A stretch of 64,000 bases of DNA from Candidatus Absconditabacteria bacterium (GTDB lineage Bacteria > Patescibacteriota > Gracilibacteria > Absconditabacterales > Absconditicoccaceae): assembly GCA_028693445.1 (NCBI GenBank), contig JAQUVI010000001.1:372001-436000 (forward strand), written 5' to 3'. Numbering within the stretch: the first letter of the stretch is position 1; every line of letters begins with the position of its first letter. The notes below the pieces were generated by a model. The model was not told where the DNA came from. It saw nothing but the letters and a program-made list of their open reading frames with translations, and ran no database searches. The position numbers and the translations under genes are program-made. Shown piece after piece: positions 17,837 to 51,565 of this stretch.

Positions 17837-19582
17837 ATGCAATACCTCAAAGTAACCAATCTTACCAAATCATATACGGACAAATCACTCGTTGATCATG
17901 TAGATTTTACGATTACCAAAAATCAGAAGATTGCTTTGATTGCCAAGAATGGAGCGGGGAAAACAACCTTGCTCAAATTATTGATGAAGGAAATCGATCT
18001 GACCGATGGCGAAATAGATCGAAGACAAGATATAAAAATCTGATATTTATGACAAGAGTATAAACTCGACAAACATGTAACGGTTCATGATTTTCTTTTT
18101 GATTTTGATACCAATGCGCATTGGGAACAAGAAGTTGAACTCAATATCAGTGTAGATAAACTGAGAATCAAATCATATCTTGGACAAACTATGGATACCT
18201 TGTCATGAGGGGAAGCGAAGCGTGTGATGTTGGCGAAGGTTTTGGCGGGAAATCCTTCAATGTTGGTACTGGATGAGCCAACGAATCATCTTGATCTCGA
18301 TATGATTGAATGGTTAGAACGATATCTCAAGAAACATCATATCACCTTGTTTATGGTTACCCATGATAGATATTTTTTGGAAAGAGTGTGTACTGATATC
18401 TGGGAGTTGGAAAGAGGAAAAATCCATCAATATAAAGGAAATTATTCCTATTTTTTGGAGAAAAAAGCTATTCGCGAAGAAAACGAAAAGATAGAAATGC
18501 ACAAACTTCACCAGTTGTTCAAAAAAGAACTTGCCTGGATTCGCAGAGCTCCGCAGGGAAGACAAACCAAAGCAAGTTTTAGAGAACAAAGATTTGATCA
18601 GATTGCCGAGAAATTTGGGACCAAAAAAGATCTTTTGAGAACAGAACATGCAAAGCTAGACCTTGAAGTAGAGGAAAGACGTTTGTGAGGCAAAATCTTG
18701 CATATCAAACATATGCAAAAAGCCTTCGGTCCCAAAAAAATCGTCAATGATTTTTCTCATGAATGCAGACACGGAGAACGCATAGGAATTATCGGAAAAA
18801 ATGGAGTCGGAAAATCAACGTTTATCAATATGATTATGGGGCAAGAGTCGCTTGATAAATGACTTATTCAAACAGGGGAGTCTGTAGTTTTTGGCTATTA
18901 TGAACAAAAGCATATTGATTTTCCGTCAGACAAAAGGCTTATCGATATTGTTCCTGACCCAAAATTGCTCGAAAAATTTCTCTTTTTTCCCAAACAACAA
19001 CATCAATTCGCACATAGTTTAAGCTGAGGAGAAAAAAGAAGACTTTATCTCCTTACAATTTTACAAAAAAATCCAAACTTTTTAATTCTGGATGAGCCAA
19101 CCAATGATTTAGATTTGATAACCTTGGGAATACTCGAAGAATTTCTTTTGGCCTACAAATGATGTTTGATCGTAGTTTCTCATGATAGATTTTTTATGGA
19201 TAAAATTGTGGACCATTTATTCGTCTTCGAAGGCGAGGGCGTAATCAATGACTTCCGATGAACCTATTCCGAGTACAAATCCGCCCAAGACCAAAAACTC
19301 AAAAAAGAAAAAACAGAAACGAAAATTGAAAAACAAGAATACAAACCGCAAATCACAGAAAAACCCAAAAAACTTTCCTACATGGAACAACGTGAACTTG
19401 ACCAACTTGCAAAAGACATCCAAACAATGGAGAAAAGAAAAGAGGAAATTCAGATTTTTTTTAATGATCCGAATTGTCCTTTTGATGATATCAAAAAATT
19501 CGGAATTGAGCTTAATGAGTTATTGAAACAATTAGAACTCAAAGAAAATAGGCGGTTTGAGTTGATAGAAAGAGCATGATAA
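17837..19582 (+). CDS. ABC-F family ATPase (Uup-like)
   Basis: 581 residues, two ABC domains in one chain without membrane domains. First: [37 protein letters not shown]. Second: [34 protein letters not shown] charged C-terminal coiled tail ends in the family's RW.ELxE pattern, where the Trp is CGG (19553-19555), my only good CGG=Trp case. ABC-F proteins act on ribosomes in translation rescue or antibiotic protection. Starts 11 nt after phrB, likely cotranscribed. Confidence 0.92.
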
Positions 19583-19598
19583 AAAAGTTTCCATAAAT

Positions 19599-19738
19599 TT
19601 GACAAAATTTAAATTCTGATTATAATATCTATGTTACCTAAGTAACAGATATTTATATCTTTCTAGGAAATTATGTACTAATACAACCATCTTATTTTAT
19701 TATAAAACAGGCTGTGATTATCTAGTCTGTTTTTTTGT
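19599..19738 (+). ncRNA. Candidate small RNA C upstream of the histidine kinase
   Basis: TTGACA (19599-19604), 16-nt spacer, TATAAT (19621-19626). The predicted transcript begins near 19633 with hairpin GTTAC-CTAA-GTAAC, then AGATA-TTTA-TATCT, and ends with AAACAG/CTGTTT plus seven T (19706-19738), about 105 nt in all. No coding potential. It could be an independent sRNA or a terminated leader of the kinase gene starting at 19810. Confidence 0.5.
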
Positions 19739-21747: not shown

Positions 21748-22369
21748 AAAAAAAACCTTAGAAGAATCTTCCAAGGTCCCTTTGAATCTTATCAAAAGAA
21801 CAAGGACAGGTGATGATAAACCAATGTAATACAATACAAGATATAAAATACCAAAGGTAAAATAAATCAAGTACAATAATACAAAACAAAAAATGCACAT
21901 GTCCTATATTGAGCGAGTGCTATTTTTACTATAATATCATTTGGTTTTAACCAACCAAATATTTTACAAAGCAGGCGGTTTAATCTTTAATCTTGTGCCA
22001 GATATCTCTTTTTGCAAAGAAATACAATATTTGTAAGGGGACAAAAATCCCAAATAGCTTGTATATTCAAAACAAGTTTAAACATACAAAGTACCACAAA
22101 GCATAGATTGATAATCCAAACAAACCAAAAGATCAGAATATATTAATCCAAAGATAAACCAAAGGTAAATCTAAAAATCAATACAATCAAACCAAAAGGT
22201 GAGAATAGAAATCAAATAATATAAGCCCTTTTCAAACCAGCTAGCTAGTACAAAAAAGAAATATATTAATATACAAATGATACAAAAACAGTACAGGTCA
22301 ATTTGTTCTATGATAAAGATCCTACACCATCAGACAACAAGGTTTTTACGCCCTTCATCTTTTGATGAC
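21748..22369 (-). ncRNA. Large structured ncRNA, copy 1 (undescribed family)
   Basis: About 620 nt without a usable ORF. Minus-strand promoter TTGACA (22399-22404), 17-nt spacer, TATACT (22376-22381). The RNA starts near 22369 with hairpin CATC-AAAA-GATG. An early segment (22303-22320) pairs with a late one (21786-21803) to close the molecule in a ~16-bp helix. A conserved core with loop word GATTAAAGAT lies around 21975-22040. It ends at terminator ACCTTGGAAGA/TCTTCTAAGGT plus eight T (21747-21777). Promoter, 5' hairpin, closing helix, core and terminator all recur in the plus-strand copy at 39145-39791, while the T-rich filler between them has diverged. No known RNA class recognised. Confidence 0.75.
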
Positions 22370-22375
22370 AATATA

Positions 22376-22404
22376 AGTATACAGGAAAATGTTTTATTTG
22401 TCAA
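22376..22404 (-). promoter_or_regulatory. Promoter of ncRNA copy 1
   Basis: Minus strand TTGACA-N17-TATACT, a near-consensus sigma70 promoter. The same boxes and flanking bases (AAATTTGACAAATAAA and TATACTTATA) precede copy 2. Confidence 0.75.
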
Positions 22405-36610: not shown

Positions 36611-38437
36611 TTATTCTTTCACAAACAATTTGGTTTGTGAAAGGGTTTCGTTTGTTATTAGATATACTCCTTTTTCTAAAAAGGAGATATCTATAACTTT
36701 ATTTTTTTTGTTTTGAAAATCGCTTATAATGATTTTTCCAAACAAATCAATAATTTTTATATTTCCAAATCCTTCAATAGTTATACTTTTTTTTGCAGGA
36801 TTAGGATATATTTTAAATTCTGACTTTGAAACTTTTTGTATCTCTATTGTCGATACGTCAATAGTTTCAGAGTTTTGACAACCATAAATATTTTCAACCA
36901 ATACTGTATAGGCATCATTTTGCAATACAACAATTGTTTGTGTTGTATCTCCAGTTGGTGACCATAAATATTGGTTAAAACCACTGCCAGCGTCAAGAAT
37001 AACAGAATCATTTAGATTTGTTTCTGTTATATGAATTTCTGGTAATTCATTTACAATCAAATCAAATATCAATATACTATCACACCCCCATTGAGATTGT
37101 AGAGTGTCTAGGTAAGAGCCAGATTCAAAATATTGTTCTCCCTGCCAGATGATTGTGTCACCTTCGCAAATATTTGATTCAATTGTGGTTTCATATTCGT
37201 TGTTTACAATCAAATCAAATATCAAGATACTATCGCACCCCCATTGAGATTGTAGAGTATCTAGATAAGAACCAGATTCAAAATATTGTTCTCCATGCCA
37301 GATGATTGTATCACCTTCGCAAATACTTGATTCAAAAACTGTCTCATATTTCCTAAAGACAGTTAGTTCCAGTGTTAAAGTACTATCGCACCCCCATTGG
37401 TTGTTTAAAAAATTTTTATAAGTACCATTGGCGTCATATACTTCTCCTTGCCAAAACACAAAATCACCTTCACAAATTGTGTCAAAAAATATTGTATCAT
37501 ATGTTGGCATAATATTTAAAACCAATGTATTTACACTATCACAACCAAATTGAGATTGCAACGTGTCTGGATAAATTCCAGACTCATAGTAAATTTTCCC
37601 ATTCCATTCATATCCATTGCCGTAATCACATATATCAACAAACGAACTTGTTTGGTGATTTTCTACTGTTACCTCAATACTTTTTGTAACATTGTCACAA
37701 CCAAATTTTGAAATAGCAGTAGCTGTACAAATCATAGTTTCGGTTGGGGTAAATAGGATATTATTTTCAATACCGTTATCCCAGTATACATTTGATACAT
37801 AACTAGTATCAATTATATATACTTTTGCTTCTTGCCCCATACAAACAGTAGTGTCATTGCATATTTCCAAAACAGCTTGTGGAAATACAGTTACTTTTAT
37901 GCTGTCTTTTTTTGCAACGCATTGATTTTCTACTGTTGCCACGTATGTTTTTGTTGTATCTGGAACAAAGTAAATTCCATTTTCTACATTGTTGTCCCAA
38001 TATATTGTACCATTGGAATAATATGCAGATAATTTTATACTTTCACCCTGACAAATACTAGTATCACTTGAAAGGTTGATTGTAGGTTCCAAAATTTCTT
38101 CTATTAAAATAGAATCTGTTTCAGCACTAGCATGATTATTGCTAATGACTACATGATACCAACCAGCATTTATATTGTGCCACCATATAGTATCTCCAGT
38201 TCCATTTAATTCTGATTCAATATTTTGTTTATTGCTTTTTAGTTGATAAGTATTTTCTATTTCAGAATTTTCCAAAAATAAAGAAACTCCATCATTATAA
38301 AAACAGAAAACACTGTCAGAGTGTTGTAAATTATAAATGTTTGGCAAAAGATAAACAAAGCATGTATCAGGATAAGTGTATTGATATATACTATTGTTTT
38401 TTGTTGTACTGGCTTTTATTTTTAGTTTGATTTGAGC
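36611..38437 (-). pseudogene. 5'-truncated Bacteroidota-type surface protein with type IX sorting domain
   Basis: About 608 codons open, yet no ATG and no signal peptide: the frame enters after TAA at ~38438 as AQIKLKIKASTTKNN; the first near-start is TTG at 38345-38347. Contents: Ig/PKD-like segments with paired Cys (SICQGESIKLS, TVCMGQEAKVY), then repeats ending in GCDS (51-residue period), then a C-terminal sorting domain KIYPNPAKKSITIEGF...KGVYLITNETLSQTKLFVKE (as two parts), as used by the Bacteroidota type IX system. It contains no TGA codon and only GGN glycines, unlike every native neighbour. Probably a transferred, N-terminally truncated gene; no T9SS components are visible here. Confidence 0.8.
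37051..37356. repeat. 153-bp tandem repeat inside the surface-protein gene
   Basis: Two nearly identical units starting at 37051 and 37204 (period 153 bp, 51 residues) encode ICEGDTIIW.GEQYFESGSY followed by LDTLQSQWGCDSILIFDLIV. Two or three more diverged units precede them in protein sequence. Confidence 0.85.
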
Positions 38438-38989: not shown

Positions 38990-39110
38990 AATTTTTTTTA
39001 TGTAAAACAAATAAAATTTTATTTGTGATTTTGTAATAATAAAATTATAAAACAGAGTAAGCTAAGTTCTAAACTTGTTTATACAACCCCCAAAAAAAGT
39101 CACTAAAAAT

Positions 39111-39138
39111 TTGACAAATAAAAAAAATCGATTATACT
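39111..39138 (+). promoter_or_regulatory. Promoter of ncRNA copy 2
   Basis: TTGACA (39111-39116), 16-nt spacer, TATACT (39133-39138). Flanks match the copy 1 promoter. Confidence 0.75.
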
Positions 39139-39144
39139 TATACT

Positions 39145-39791
39145 GTCATCAAAAGATGTTGATTGTAAAAAATTGATATCTGTATGATGTTGGATCTTTA
39201 TCATAGAACAAATTGATTAAACTATTTTTGTATCTTATGTAATTTATATTCTGATTTTATTATTAAAATTTAGTTTATAATTTGGTGTTTATTATTTCTA
39301 TCGGTATTTCAAATTAATTATTCTCTTTGGGTTTAGTTAAATTGATTATTATCTAGATTTAATTTATACCATTATATCATGCAAATAATTAAATTCTGAA
39401 TTTATTCTTTATGTTTGTTTTATTCTTTATTGGATTTTCTTACATTAGGATTGATTTATGTTTTATTTATTGTTTGGTATATTATATTTTGATATTTCTG
39501 TTTATTCAGACTATTTAAAGATTTATTCTTTATTGCAAATATTATATTTCTCAAAAAAGAAATATCAGACAAAAGATTAAAGATAAAAAGGTCTGCTTTG
39601 CAAAATATGTTGTTTGTTTATCCATCTTCATATTATAGTAAAGATAGTGTTATTTCAATATTGGACTTTTGAAACCTTTCTTTGTTTTATTATATTTTTA
39701 TTAATTTGTAATATTTCATTGTTTATCTTCATAAGTCCTTGTTCTTTTGATAAGATTTATTAAAACCTTAGATTTTTTCTAAGGTTTTTTT
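39145..39791 (+). ncRNA. Large structured ncRNA, copy 2 (undescribed family)
   Basis: About 647 nt. Starts at the same GTCATCAAAAGATG 5' hairpin as copy 1; the near-identical GGATCTTTATCATAGAACAA block (39192-39211) pairs with TTGTTCTTTTGATAAGAT (39739-39756). The core at about 39530-39615 contains a hairpin TATTTCT/AAGAAATA, then CAGAC...GTCTG closing a loop with GATTAAAGAT. In copy 1 the matching pairs change (GAAATA to GAGATA with T·G pairing; A-T to G-C in the second stem), which favours a conserved RNA fold. Ends with terminator AACCTTAGA/TCTAAGGTT plus T-run (39763-39791). Confidence 0.75.
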
Positions 39792-39880: not shown

Positions 39881-41272
39881 ATGAAGACAACTGCTATTAT
39901 GAGTATTTTTAGCGACTATAAATCATTCCTTAATCAAAATGTCGTTGTTAATTGATGGATAAGGAGTGTAAGAGATTCCAAAAGTTTTGGATTTATAGAA
40001 CTTAATGATTGATCCTATCTAAAAAATATTCAAGTAGTATTTGAAAACGATTTATCAAATTTTGATGATATTTGTAAATTTACAACTGGTTCAGCTATAA
40101 ATGTTGAATGAGTATTAGTTGCTTCTCAATGAACAAAACAAGCGTTTGAAATTAAAGCGAAAAAGATAACTCTTGTTGGTGATTGTCCAACTGATTATCC
40201 ATTACAAAAAAAATGACATAGCTTCGAATATCTTCGTGAAATTGCACATCTTAGAACTAGATCAAATACTTTTTCAGCAGTGTTTAGAGTTAGAAGTTTA
40301 TTATCTTTTGCTATTCATCAGTACTTCAACGAAAATGGTTTTGTTTATGTACATACACCAATTATAACAGCAAGCGATTGTGAAGGGGCTGGACAAATGT
40401 TTCAAGTATCAACATTAGATTCTTTGAATATACCAAAAGATCAGGAGTGAAAAGTAGATTTCTCCAAGGATTTTTTTGGAAAACAAGCTTCTCTAACTGT
40501 AAGCTGACAATTGGAAGCAGAAACTTTTGCTACAGCATTCAATAAAGTATATACATTTGGACCAACATTTAGAGCTGAGAATTCAAACACAACAAAGCAT
40601 CTCTCAGAATTTTGGATGATAGAACCAGAAATAGCATTTGCAGATCTTAATGATGACATGAATCTTGCAGAATGACTTACAAAATATATCTTCAAATATG
40701 TTTTGGATCATGCTCCAGCTGAGATGGATTTTTTTGAAAGGTTTATTAATCCTGATGTTAAAAAAAGACTTGAGAGTTTGGTATCTTCAGATTTTAAAAG
40801 AATAACATATACAGAAGCAATTGAATTACTCAAAAAATCTAGCGAAAAATTTGTTTATCCAGTAGAACGAGGTATGGATTTACAAACAGAACATGAAAGA
40901 TATATCTGTGAAAAATTATTTAAAGGACCAACTTTTGTGACAGATTATCCAAAAGATATAAAAGCTTTTTATATGAGACTCAATGAAGACGGTAAAACAG
41001 TCGCTGCTACAGATTTATTGGTTCCATGAGTATGAGAGCTTCTTGGTGGCTCACAGAGAGAAGAGAGATATGATATATTAGAACAAAAAATAAAAGATAT
41101 GTGATTTGATGTAGCTGATTATTCTCGATATTTGGATTTACGTAAATATGGTACTGTTCCTCATTCATGATTTGGTATGGGATTTGAAAGGTTGATTATG
41201 TATGTGACTGGTATGGAAAATATTAGAGATGTAATTCCTTTCCCTAGAGCGCCAAAAGAATGTGAATTTTAG
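39881..41272 (+). CDS. asnS: Asparaginyl-tRNA synthetase
   Basis: 463-residue class II synthetase. OB fold with [13 protein letters not shown]; motif 2 [10 protein letters not shown]...[11 protein letters not shown]; motif 3 [12 protein letters not shown]. Two invariant tryptophans, in [14 protein letters not shown] and [12 protein letters not shown], are CGA (40868-40870 and 41126-41128), decisive for the code. Follows ncRNA copy 2 by 89 nt. Confidence 0.96.
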
Positions 41273-41485: not shown

Positions 41486-42553
41486 ATGCAAAAAATTACG
41501 CAATTATTAAACACATACGATTTTGAAACTATTTGAGTTTTAAAACAACTTTCTCAAACTCACAAATCTTTGTGAGAGTTAAAAGGTCTTGCTGAAACAA
41601 TACCCAACATGTTTATTTTGATTACTACATTGAGTTTACAAGAAGCCAAAGAAAGTTCTGAAATAGAAAATATTATAACTACCAATGATGAGTTATATCA
41701 AAGCAATACCAAAAAAAAATATTTTACAAGTATTCCTGCAAAAGAAGTATATAATTATGCAGATGCTTTGTTTTATTGATATCAAATTGTTTCCACAAAC
41801 AATCTAATTACGACCAAAGATATAATACACTTACAGCAAATGATCGAAGAAAATAATGCATGAATCAGAAAATTGCCATGAACAGAACTAAAAAATGACA
41901 AAACAGGCGAAATAATATATACTCCACCACAATCGCACAAAGAAATTATTGATTTAATGTCAGATTTAGAGTGGTTTATTAATACCTCAAGTCAATTAGA
42001 TCCTTTGATTAAAATGGCGATAATTCATCATCAGTTCGAAAGTATTCATCCATTTTATGATGCAAATGGTAGAGTGGGTCGTGTTATAAATGTTTTGTAT
42101 TTAGTTAAAGAATGATTATTGGATAGCCCTATTTTGTATCTTAGTAGAAGTATAAATAAACACAAAAACGATTATTATAATTATTTACAAATAGTTCGTG
42201 ATCAGTGAACTTGGGAAACTTGGGTTATTTGGATGTTGGAAATGATAGAACAAACAGCTAAACATACAATAATATTTATCAAAAACATAAAAAATCTGAT
42301 GATGGAATATAAACATACTATTAGATCAAGATTGCCCAAAATATATAGTCAAGAATTGCTAAATAATATTTTCAAACATCCCTATACCAAAGTAGAATTT
42401 TTAAGAAAAGATTTGTGATGTACTCGCATCACAGCAGTTAAATATTTGGAAGAATTAGTAAAAATCTGAATATTAAAAAAAATAAAATCTGGGAGAGATA
42501 ATTATTATATCAACACCAAACTTTTTGCCCTTCTACAAAATATTTCTTGATAA
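41486..42553 (+). CDS. Fic family protein with N-terminal inhibitory motif
   Basis: 355 residues. Fic active site HPFYDANGRVGR (about residues 190-201) with all catalytic positions of the canonical HPFx(D/E)GNGR except Ala for the first Gly. Upstream SSEIEN fits the (S/T)xxxE(G/N) inhibitory helix, so it is a class II autoinhibited Fic. C-terminal winged-helix-like segment (FLRKDLGCTRITAVKYLEELVKIGIL). Predicted AMP transfer to a Tyr/Ser/Thr of a target protein; the target is unknown. In this family such proteins act as regulators or in toxin-antitoxin and host-interaction roles. Confidence 0.92.
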
Positions 42554-42626
42554 ACTTTAGAGTAGTTATGAAAAGAAATTAGAATCTGATTGTGTTTGGA
42601 CAGTATGTAGGATATTAAAAATTGTC

Positions 42627-42671
42627 TTGATTTCGTAGTACAATACCCTACAATATTGTAGGTTTTACTAC
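42627..42671 (+). promoter_or_regulatory. Promoter and operator palindrome of the AbiE pair
   Basis: TTGATT (42627-42632), 16-nt spacer, TACAAT (42649-42654). The -10 lies inside the perfect palindrome CCTACAAT-ATTGTAGG (42647-42662), flanked by GTAGTA (42635) and TACTAC (42666). AbiEi antitoxins are known to autorepress through inverted repeats, so this is a likely operator. Confidence 0.6.
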
Positions 42672-42681
42672 TACAAATTAA

Positions 42682-43266
42682 ATGGAAAACAAAATAGCTA
42701 TTATTAGGGAAAAACTAACAATTTGCGGACAAACCTTTGTACAAAAGGATTTTTTGACAAAAATTTTGGATAAATTTGCCCCCAACTATAGTATAGAAGA
42801 TTTGTGTACCAAATGACTTCTTACTCCAATCAAAAGAGATAAACGATATATAAACAACAAATCAAGAAGTTTTGTAAATCCTTTTGTGGTTGGTGCTCTT
42901 TATATGTGAGATGATACATATATGTTTGGATGACTTAGTATTTATAATAGATATGGGTTTTCAGAGCAGGTAGCAGAACGGTATACCATATACAACACCA
43001 AATATTCATGAAAGAAAATAATTGGACCATGTAAATTTATTTTTGTCAGACAAAGAGAGAGTTTCTTTTATGGTGGTATAGAGCAAAAAGTCGATAAATA
43101 CTTATACAAAGTTATGTCAAAAGAAAGAGTTTTTATACAATTTATCAAAGAAAATAAAAAATTCGACACATTACCATCAACAATAAACAAGAAACAGTTA
43201 CAAACATTAGCCAAAAAATACGTAAGCAAGAATTTATATACTAAAATATCAGCATTATGTTTATAG
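42682..43266 (+). CDS. AbiEi-type antitoxin
   Basis: 194 residues, starting MENKIAIIREKLTICG. A winged-helix-like N-terminal part and FVNPFVVGALYMGDD / YGFSEQVAERYTIYN in the middle follow the layout of AbiEi-like transcriptional regulators. It overlaps the downstream nucleotidyltransferase toxin gene by 10 nt (ATG inside the last codons), the usual coupling in type IV AbiE toxin-antitoxin systems. Sequence identity to AbiEi is judged by eye and by context. Confidence 0.7.
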
Positions 43267-44114
43267 ATTATATAAACGATTTTTTGCCCAAATATCAAAA
43301 TCTGTCAAAAGAAGAGTTTTTATCTATACTAAAAAAATCAAACACATGAAAATTTGATGAGTATAAATTAGAAAAAGATTTTTTACTGACATTAATTTTG
43401 ATTAAATTTTGAGAAAAATATCCAGATTTAATATTTAAATGATGAACTTGTCTAAATAAAATCTATTTCCCATATTTTAGGTTAAGTGAAGATTTGGATT
43501 TTGTTATCAATAAAGAACTAGGAAGATCAGCTAGACAGACTTTATTGAAAGAATACGAGAAGAATTTTATTGATAATCTCAAAATATTGGATATAAAACT
43601 CAAACATGAAAGAACAAAATTTGATGAACATAAACTGGCAATGTTTGTTTTTGAATATGAATCAACATTGGACAATTCTATACAAACCATCAAAATAGAT
43701 CTTTCTCTCAAAAAAAGTTTAATGCTTCCAAGTATCCAAAAATCTATTATTGCAATATATAAAGACAGCGTGTTGGAAGAAACTATTTTTCAAAACCACA
43801 CAATAAACTGTATAGATCTAAAAGAATCGGTAGCTGAAAAAACTAGAGCAAGCCTTACAAGAAAAGAGCCAGCAATTAGAGATTTTTTTGATATACGATA
43901 TATCAAAAACAATACCGAATTTGATTTTGAAGATAAAGGATTCAAACAACTTGTGCATAAAAAACTAGAAGAAGTAGATTTTAAATATACAATAGATAAG
44001 GTCTATAATCTTTTGGAACAACAAGTATTGACTGATCTCAATCCTGTCCTCAAAGACAACTACGATTTCAATTTCCCAGAGATATATCAGTTTATTTTAT
44101 CACATAAAAACTAA
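43257..44114 (+). CDS. AbiEii-type nucleotidyltransferase toxin
   Basis: 285 residues. Nucleotidyltransferase core: LIFKGGTCLNKIYFPYFRLSEDLDFVI, where GGT...R.SEDLDF carries the metal-binding acids; later EKTRASLTRKEPAIRDFFDIRYI and a C-terminal helix. AbiEii toxins transfer nucleotides (GTP-dependent) and stop growth during phage attack. Two TGA codons (KGGTC region) encode Gly. Confidence 0.85.
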
Positions 44115-44132
44115 GCGTTGATTTACAAGTTT

Positions 44133-44327
44133 ATGTCTGATATTGATACACAAAACAAAGAACTTGGTGCTGATGGGTTTTTTGTCGGTGAATACGAAAA
44201 ATACGCTTGGTCCAATATCATGGACAGGAAAATAGGGACTCATGATAAATTGTATCTCTATAGCGAGTGATTGGAGTCACTGAATTATGTTCTGAACCCT
44301 GAGTGTTGGATTATAGCGAGATTCTAG
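44133..44327 (+). CDS. Small hypothetical ORF, 64 aa
   Basis: MSDIDTQNKELGADGFFVGE... WIIARF, with one TGA (SEGLES). 18 nt after the AbiEii stop, same strand. No family recognised; may be a gene fragment. Confidence 0.35.
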
Positions 44328-44515
44328 AGGAGATTTATAAATTTTGAGAGTTTGGGATGATGTTGGAAAATAGGGGAGTTTTGGAATAAGGATAGATTCC
44401 GGTTTGGATTGAACAGTATATAGGAGATTGATAATATAGGAAATTGATATTGTTTCTAATTTAAGTATTTATATATTAGACTCATAAAAACTATTTTAAT
44501 AAACTAATTATATAT
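44328..44515 (+). promoter_or_regulatory. Intergenic region with promoter of the retron unit
   Basis: TTGTTT (44450-44455), 16-nt spacer, TATATT (44472-44477), 39 nt before the DUF3800 gene. The first 120 nt of the interval hold nothing recognisable. Confidence 0.45.
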
Positions 44516-45214
44516 ATGAAAGATATATATGTTGTATTTGATGAATCAATAAACTCTTGTTTAACTTCTTTGTCTTGTATTGTTTTTGAAGATAGTGAAT
44601 TATTCTCTTCTATATTTAAGATAATTAATATAATAAAAGCAAAACCATGACATAAAACAGAAAATTTTCCTCATTATGCATATGATGCTTATACATTAAG
44701 AAGTTTTTTTATAGACGAAATAAGAAAATTACAATTTAGATCTTATATTGTTTTCTCAAATAATGAAAGGGAGTCTGAGAGTACTGAAAAAATATATGAT
44801 GTTTTTCTTATTAATTTATTGAAACCTTTGATTTTAAAATATAAAAATAGATTTAAATCTGAAATAAAATTTCATTTGTTTTTTGATAATATATGAACTA
44901 AGGGTTATTTTGATAATATATTAAGTAGTATACAAAATTTTAATTATGAGATAAATATTATCAAAAAAAACGAAATGTGACATATTACAGCTATACCTGA
45001 CTATGTTTGCTGATGTTTATCTGATTTTCTATTTAATCCAAATCCAGATAATCCAAGTTCTCAATGAAATACAATATTTATTAATTTAATCGATAAAATA
45101 TGATGCATTAAAGCCATAATTGAAGATAAAACTATCTTTTTTGAATTTTCTAAAAGAGGTATAAGGAAATCTTTTATTGATAAATTTAAGTGAATATTTA
45201 AGAAAAAGCAATAA
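44516..45214 (+). CDS. DUF3800-like protein, putative retron accessory/effector
   Basis: 232 residues. N-terminal VVFDESINSC is the acidic D-E-S opening of DUF3800; HKTENFPHYAYDAY and KFHLFFDNIGTKG give further acidic positions; TAIPDYVCGCLSDFL matches the family's C-terminal (Q)lxDlvaG. DUF3800 has an RNase H-like fold and is suspected to be a nuclease. It lies directly upstream of the retron RNA and RT in one apparent transcript. As I recall, DUF3800 proteins are accessory proteins of one retron type (Mestre and colleagues' classification). Several TGA-Gly codons. Confidence 0.75.
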
Positions 45215-45223
45215 GATTGATTA

Positions 45224-45345
45224 TTAAAGGAAATTTCTTAATATGAAAAAGTATAGTCTAATACTATTTTTTAGAATACGAGTTCGTATTCGTTCTATAG
45301 AATTTACTGTTATCCTAGTATTAGACTATACTTTAAATTTTTATA
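45224..45345 (+). ncRNA. Candidate retron msr-msd RNA
   Basis: Between the DUF3800 gene and the RT. A 19-bp perfect inverted repeat (45248-45266 with 45316-45334) encloses an inner hairpin GAATACGA/TCGTATTC (45274-45291) and a small palindrome TTCTATAGAA. Upstream, ATTAA/TTAAT (45224-45243) closes another small hairpin around GGAAATTTC. I read the long hairpin as the msd (reverse-transcribed) part and the upstream hairpin as msr; the a1/a2 ends and branching G are not identified. Confidence 0.65.
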
Positions 45346-45354
45346 TATATAAAT

Positions 45355-46275
45355 ATGAAAGAGAAAATACTTAAAATATCTACTTTAGATGAATTGTCTG
45401 AGTTTTTTAGCGTTTCAAAGTCTTTTTTTAATGATTTTGAAAGCAAAAGAGAAGATTTAAACTTTATAGATAAAATAAGGATTCCTAAGAGAAAATCTTG
45501 ATATAGAATTGTATATAATATATTAGATGAAGAATATAGAAAGGTGGTAGAAAAAATAACATATATATTAAATGAATTTTATATTCCACATCAAGCTGTA
45601 CATGGTTTTGTTTCTTGAAAATCTATCGTATCTAATGCAAGTAATCATTTAAATAAGGCAATTCTAATAAATTTGGATATAAAAAATTTCTTTGAATCAA
45701 TATCAATAGGAAGTGTTATGGCGATATTTATTAGAATATGATTAAATAATCTTGTAGCTGATATCTTTTCAAGAATTGTATGTTATAAATGACATTTGAT
45801 AGCATGATTTTCAACAAGTCCGGTGATTTCTAACATGTATTGCTCAGTTATGGATAATGATTTCATGATATTAGCCAAATCTGAATGATATAGATATACT
45901 AGATATGCAGATGATATAACATTTTCTACAGATAATGTTAATCTTTTGTCTAAAATGAAAATAAATCAGATATTAAATAAATTTCAATTTGTTATTAATG
46001 AGAAAAAATATTTCATACAAAGAAGAGGTTGAAGTCAATATGTTACTGGATTGTCTGTGTGTGAAAAAGATTCGCCAAGAATACCAAAATCTATAAAGAA
46101 AAATATTAGGTTAGAATCTTACTATATAAAAAAATATGGTATTGAACAACAAAATAAGAGATGAAAGACTAGATTTTTATTAGATAAATATTCTATTATG
46201 GGTTGGATATCATATATGAATAAGATAGAACCGAAATTAGTAAAATATATAGCTGATAGTACAAGAAGTTTATAA
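45355..46275 (+). CDS. Retron reverse transcriptase
   Basis: 306 residues. Palm motifs ILINLDIKNFFESI (RT2/RT3 area), STSPVISNMYCSVMD, active site TRYADDITFS with YADD, and retron-specific region X NAxxH (SNASNH) and region Y VTG (YVTGLSV). HGFVSGKSIVSNA is typical of retron RTs. The enzyme would copy the adjacent RNA into multicopy single-stranded DNA. No maturase or HNH domain, which excludes a group II intron RT. Gly codons in conserved loops are TGA, so the retron is adapted to this code. Confidence 0.93.
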
Positions 46276-51012: not shown

Positions 51013-51231
51013 ATGGAACTTGAAGTTTTTATAGATATATTGCAAAAAGCCAGTTCTTACTACAAGAAAGCGAATTATGTTCAAAAAGCTAAGATATTCG
51101 ATATTTTGTTTTTGAACATTGTTGTAGACAAACAAAAAAGGCTTCACCTTGCGGTAAAACCTTGATTGGAATCACTATTTGAGAAGAAAATCTCATCTGG
51201 TGGAGATGACGGGAATCGAACCCGTGTCTAA
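51013..51231 (+). pseudogene. C-terminal remnant of a large serine recombinase overlapping ssrA
   Basis: 72 codons: VFIDILQKASSYYKKANYVQ, then KIFDILFLNIVVDKQKRLHL, AVKPGLESLF, i.e. the Y.kA...k..il..lF.Nl..k..L.v..k pattern at the end of serine integrases. The N-terminal catalytic part is missing. Its end runs antisense into the last 34 nt of the tmRNA gene (SSGGDDGNxTRV), as expected for an integrase gene abutting its attachment site at a tRNA-like 3' end. Confidence 0.6.
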
Positions 51232-51565
51232 AAGGCATAATCAACAATTTCTACCACTATAGAGTATCTATAGGCCAGGATTTTTTGTGTTACTAGTACA
51301 GGCGAGCTTTAGCCGATAAACAGGCGAGCATTTTGTCCTAGCAACATAATGTTTTCCTTCTTAGGGCGACCTGAAAGATAGAAGGAGTCAGCAGTCAGGT
51401 TGAGAACGTTCCAAGCTACCTAGGCAGCATATGCAGGAACGAGAGCGAAAGCTCTTTTAAGTGTTTTGTTTGCACTTTGATTTGGTCCGTAATTAAACTC
51501 TAGAACCATCGAGTAGTGGCTGTCATCAATTATGAGGTCCCTTTATCAAATCCAGAGACATCCCC
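51198..51565 (-). ncRNA. ssrA: tmRNA
   Basis: 368 nt, minus strand. Acceptor stem 5' GGGGATG pairs with CATCTCC, discriminator A and encoded CCA (51198-51200); T arm GGGTTCGATTCCC. The tag frame starts at GCA (51471-51473) and ends at TAG (51420-51422): ANKTLKRAFALVPAYAA, ending Ala-Ala as usual for degradation tags. Promoter TTGTTT-N16-TATAAT at 51576-51603. Serves ribosome rescue; its 3' end is a classic integration site. Confidence 0.95.
51420..51473 (-). other. tmRNA proteolysis tag reading frame
   Basis: Resume codon GCA to stop TAG, 17 residues, ANKTLKRAFALVPAYAA. The stop is TAG, in keeping with TGA not being a stop. Confidence 0.85.

Follow-up and report, generated by a model that had tools for sequence, protein, structure and literature searches.

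The window, a 64,000-nt stretch of DNA (G000:C11:372001-436000), comes from the genome of a Candidatus Absconditabacteria bacterium (G000; 1.17 Mb in 11 contigs), and with genetic code 25, as used among SR1/Gracilibacteria, its reading frames stay open. Within it lie two paralogous non-coding genes, copies A and B, of 622 and 647 nt respectively, each running from promoter to intrinsic terminator (Table 1). When copy A was used as a blastn query against its own genome, copy B was matched with E values of 2.2e-27 and 5e-18, far beyond chance. A third copy of 507 nt, copy C, was found in Candidate division SR1 bacterium RAAC1_SR1_1 (G002, CP006913.1:292446-292951), where it has the same promoter and blocks as A and B. 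The similarity among the three copies starts in the A-tract upstream of the -35 box and stops with the terminator.

A sequence-only reading of this DNA had proposed that both copies carry a near-consensus promoter, and this was borne out: both promoters are of the sigma-70 type and match 11 of the 12 consensus positions, with spacers of 17 and 16. The extents proposed for the two genes also hold. The terminator of B was detected by the terminator scan; that of A was missed, although a hairpin and T-run can be seen clearly in both its sequence and its fold. The A-tract with the -35 box occurs three times in the window (A, B and position 19581), against an expectation of 0.03. At the third site, 19581-19738(+), a TATAAT box comes next, and then a candidate transcript of ~105 nt that has a terminator (folding z -2.0); no relative of it was found among the fetched loci.

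Table 1. Features of copies A and B, with positions counted from the first nucleotide of the window.
Feature	Position	Strand	Remarks
Copy A	21748..22369	(-)	predicted 622-nt transcript
A: A-tract element AAAAAAGTCATCAAAAATTTGACAAA	22397..22422	(-)	upstream of and into -35; common to B and C
A: promoter	22376..22404	(-)	TTGACA-17-TATACT
A: P0	22325..22367	(-)	5' hairpin; two-sided changes between copies in 4 of 10 inner pairs
A: P1 5' strand with extension P1d (GGATCTTTATCATAGAACAAATTGA)	22298..22322	(-)	early block of the sequence-only reading
A: P2 5' strand (CTGTTTTTGT)	22282..22291	(-)	long-range helix
A: U-rich arm	22077..22278	(-)	variable
A: hairpin Ha	22058..22076	(-)	
A: hairpin Hb	22038..22051	(-)	two-sided changes between copies in all 5 pairs
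A: conserved core	21901..22036	(-)	model R1; three-way junction J1/Hc/Hd, hairpin He, P2 3' strand
A: Hd loop ACAAGATTAAAGATTAAACC	21977..21996	(-)	20 nt, mostly unpaired
A: P2 3' strand (GTAAAAATAG)	21920..21929	(-)	
A: GGAC arm (Hf)	21804..21904	(-)	GGAC...GTCC
A: P1 3' strand (TTGTTCTTTTGATAAGATTC)	21784..21803	(-)	late block of the sequence-only reading
A: terminator hairpin and T-run	21748..21776	(-)	abuts 3' end of engB, which is on the other strand
Copy B	39145..39791	(+)	predicted 647-nt transcript
B: A-tract element	39093..39118	(+)	pattern search
B: promoter	39111..39138	(+)	TTGACA-16-TATACT
B: P1 5' strand with P1d	39192..39216	(+)	
B: U-rich arm	39235..39493	(+)	variable
B: conserved core	39533..39666	(+)	
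B: Hd loop	39571..39590	(+)	conserved
B: P1 3' strand	39739..39758	(+)	
B: terminator	39762..39791	(+)	terminator scan

The code-25 stop-to-stop frames of A, B and C match one another only in different frames, as expected for similar DNA with indels, and none is common to all three; the earlier claim that the copies share no ORF thus stands, and a protein-coding gene was rejected. The same reading had matched the RNA to no known class. A cmscan search of A, B and C against Rfam, at E values up to 5, agrees with it, returning only scattered sub-threshold chance matches and no family; the best of these was the ylbH leader, on the opposite strand of the 3' end of A (23.7 against a gathering score of 50). 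At Rfam gathering thresholds the window contains a tmRNA alone (51198-51565(-), 82 bits), a gene that Rfam finds and ARAGORN misses.

We consider it very improbable that the RNA is a highly diverged housekeeping RNA (RNase P, tmRNA, 6S or SRP RNA) or the remnant of a mobile element. Pairing of the 5' and 3' ends is known in several housekeeping RNAs, but no Rfam family was returned here, A, B and C have no match to RF00010 or RF00023, and the genome has its RNase P RNA (G000:C1:160747-161075) and its tmRNA gene elsewhere. Two copies in one genome could likewise suggest mobility, yet A and C are syntenic rather than mobile, both lying tail to tail with engB, and no match was found in phage or plasmid collections.

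Copy B directly precedes asnS, has the same orientation and stops in a terminator ~90 nt before that gene, an arrangement that would suit control of asnS in cis through a leader or attenuator. However, the ends of A and C meet engB, which is encoded on the opposite strand, and no gene follows either copy in its own direction, so the RNA is no leader in general; moreover, neither RAAC1_SR1_1 nor G001, a further genome of the same genus, has a copy before asnS. The placement of A and C largely refutes a leader function, which we regard as extremely unlikely.

Each folded alone, A, B and C arrive at the same frame, consisting of P0, P1, a core three-way junction (J1, Hc and Hd) and then hairpin He. 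P1 is formed by the early block GGATCTTTATCATAGAACAA and the late block TTGTTCTTTTGATAAGATT; it closes the molecule, joining the 5' and 3' ends around P2, the U-rich arm, the small hairpins and the core, and most of its pairs have a probability of >0.9 in all three copies, even though the 3' strand of C differs (TTGCTCTATATAAAGTCC). Located between the 5' strand of P2 and hairpin Ha, the U-rich arm is 202 nt long in A, 259 nt in B and 94 nt in C, without clear similarity. In all three copies Hd carries an A-rich loop, AAGATTAAAGAT, whose sequence is invariant and most of whose bases are unpaired. These folds revise the sequence-only reading in part. The early and late blocks that it had listed as separate motifs are indeed conserved, but as the paired strands of one long-range helix, P1. 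The 5' hairpin is present, not in the 4-bp CATC-AAAA-GATG form but as a longer two-part hairpin of ~15 bp, and the conserved core is retained as a three-way junction, with GATTAAAGAT sitting in the loop of one of its hairpins, most of which is unpaired.

Compared with dinucleotide shuffles (40 and 24), the sense strands without the terminator gave folding z values of -5.9 (A), -6.9 (B) and a modest -2.9 (C), against -2.1, -2.0 and -1.1, respectively, for the antisense strands. A table of 102 pairs was also drawn up by hand. Of 303 cells in it, 292 pair, and 17 of the pairs have two-sided changes, whereas slid-partner controls give 109-148 pairing cells and 1-4 two-sided changes; because this table was partly hand-fitted (Ha, Hb and P0 in B), it is biased toward the structure. 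When the core was aligned with MAFFT, 95.7% of cells paired, and the four pairs with two-sided changes compare with a mean of 1.3 in shuffles (5 of 500 shuffles reach 4), while the count of further pair types is unexceptional under the same control (73 of 500). P1, P1d and P2 have no two-sided changes, those in P1 being one-sided only. The comparison comprises three sequences, of which two are paralogues from the same genome; this is too few for significance of the R-scape type, and the compensatory changes among them lend the fold good but not final support. Overall, we are highly confident that the gene genuinely encodes a structured non-coding RNA; the case for the RNA is good, and its function is what we infer.

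Across 49 genomes of the family and 353 of the class (stricter filters), only A, B and C score convincingly with model R1, built on the core. They are also the only real matches of model R2, built on the 5' domain, in the 49 family genomes, where its weaker matches form a continuum of noise (best 0.023) and were rejected. Among 84,980 species genomes, the exact core pattern was found in RAAC1_SR1_1 alone. The homologues elsewhere that the sequence-only reading had called for thus amount to one, with none further in the 353 class genomes, and since RAAC1_SR1_1 is the sole other carrier among these, the "family" is three copies in two species. Its known range is very narrow and confined to a single genus, and divergent relatives may have been missed. 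In G001, wider filters gave two weak core matches (E 5.4 and 9.6) that are not credible, and the neighbourhoods of engB and asnS hold no copy. With no credible match in this genome and none beside its engB, the RNA is dispensable in the genus.

Several further candidates were rejected. The best core match in other genera (L112 in G041, E 0.027) falls within a 389-aa frame predicted to be coding, and the P1 3' block with two mismatches is scattered through most genomes of the family, unlinked to the other blocks in the profile search. In viral contigs, the exact core and exact 5' patterns found nothing. The exact P1 5' block gave three matches there, with no convincing core score (L132 at 19.5 bits, E 0.34) and none in the profile search, and a loose loop pattern gave 120, of which the core model was run on 80 loci and matched none.

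Bacteria have few large structured RNAs whose function is unknown: OLE, ROOL, GOLLD and a handful more. ROOL (Rumen-Originating, Ornate, Large) is a homo-octameric cage. OLE, ROOL and GOLLD form RNA-only assemblies or oligomers, the solved ROOL being 659 nt long with a linker that has no sequence similarity among homologues, and GOLLD is often >800 nt and encoded by phages or prophages near tRNA islands (PMC12286853). OLE (Ornate, Large, Extremophilic) is an RNA of Bacillota with membrane and other protein partners (PMC10898510, PMC12054373). The RNA described here is like ROOL in its size, ornate fold and dissimilar linker, and like GOLLD in its large size and in combining a conserved 3' part with a variable one. 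With OLE it shares a length of about 600 nt, a structured fold and highly conserved nucleotide blocks. Unlike all three, A, B and C have no Rfam match, even at E values up to 5. They differ further from ROOL and GOLLD, which belong to phages or prophages and often lie near tRNA islands, in having the chromosomal neighbours engB and asnS, and the window contains no tRNA; from OLE they differ in phylum, and no obvious candidate for an OLE-type partner (OapA and others) adjoins A, B or C.

The likeness to OLE, ROOL and GOLLD in size, end-to-end closure, conserved core and variable arm leads us to prefer a scaffold RNA. As a whole, a free-standing large structured RNA gene with a trans-acting structural or scaffold role is the best explanation, and we give it an even chance of being correct; for a scaffold mechanism in the manner of these RNAs, to which this one is unrelated in sequence, the analogy brings us slightly short of even. 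The RNA would be stable and made in quantity, and would act in trans as the structural or scaffold component of an RNP or a homo-oligomer. Its invariant loop and core may form a docking surface for a protein or RNA partner, with the variable arm acting as a spacer. That it builds an RNA-only homo-oligomer or cage, chromosomal, specific to Absconditabacteria and independent in origin from ROOL, GOLLD and OLE, seems a rather long shot.

The same loop might instead serve a trans-acting antisense or sponge RNA, in which AAGATTAAAGAT would pair with U-rich mRNA targets while the fold presents and protects it. We consider this unlikely. The loop is invariant while the surrounding stems vary, and its mostly unpaired state in all copies would suit such a role; however, the exact complement of its 12-mer occurs in RAAC1_SR1_1 only in the RNA gene itself and in G000 at one other place, and 600 nt is large for an antisense RNA. 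Shorter or imperfect targets could nevertheless exist. As there is no conserved exact antisense target, a structural role is favoured for the loop.

The near-invariance of the P1 5' strand despite the changed 3' partner in C means that this strand may carry a second constraint. One hypothesis is a switching RNA or ribozyme with open and closed forms, perhaps with catalysis, in which TAAAGAT of the loop and the 7-nt ATCTTTA of the P1 5' strand would pair, in competition with the P1 3' strand. The match of 7 bp (8 with a G-U pair) has a shuffle chance of about 0.02-0.03, uncorrected for other comparisons, which is weak statistically, and the energy model strongly favours a closed P1; a switch of this kind is therefore quite improbable in our estimation. 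Whatever its role, this is a previously undescribed RNA gene of 507-647 nt, with its own promoter and terminator and an elaborate conserved fold, in one genus of tiny, uncultured Absconditabacteria; the literature consulted, which covers the field in part, describes no structured RNA in this group. For a reduced code-25 Absconditabacterium of ~1.2 Mb, two copies with strong-looking promoters would be expensive to keep and would demand a function, and a new chromosomal large RNA would test whether such RNAs arise repeatedly.

Some neighbouring genes have features of their own. The engB gene is nearest to that of RAAC1_SR1_1 (78%), and asnS (39881-41269(+)) is nearer to genomes of genus g14 (77-79%) than to the same-genus RAAC1_SR1_1 (71%), from which a transfer or replacement of asnS is possible. 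In a defence-like cluster downstream of asnS (41486-46272(+)), genes for a Fic protein and an AbiEii-type nucleotidyltransferase, the latter preceded by a small gene, are accompanied by one for a 232-aa product with no Pfam match and one for a reverse transcriptase (PF00078). A link between the RNA and this reverse transcriptase, 6 kb from B, was rejected, as none lies near A (in the listed stretch) or C. The 577-aa product of the gene at 36611-38344(-) is Bacteroidota-like and bears a sorting tail for type IX secretion (PF18962), and the gene has no in-frame TGA although the genome uses code 25, which could reflect a recent transfer or an assembly chimera.
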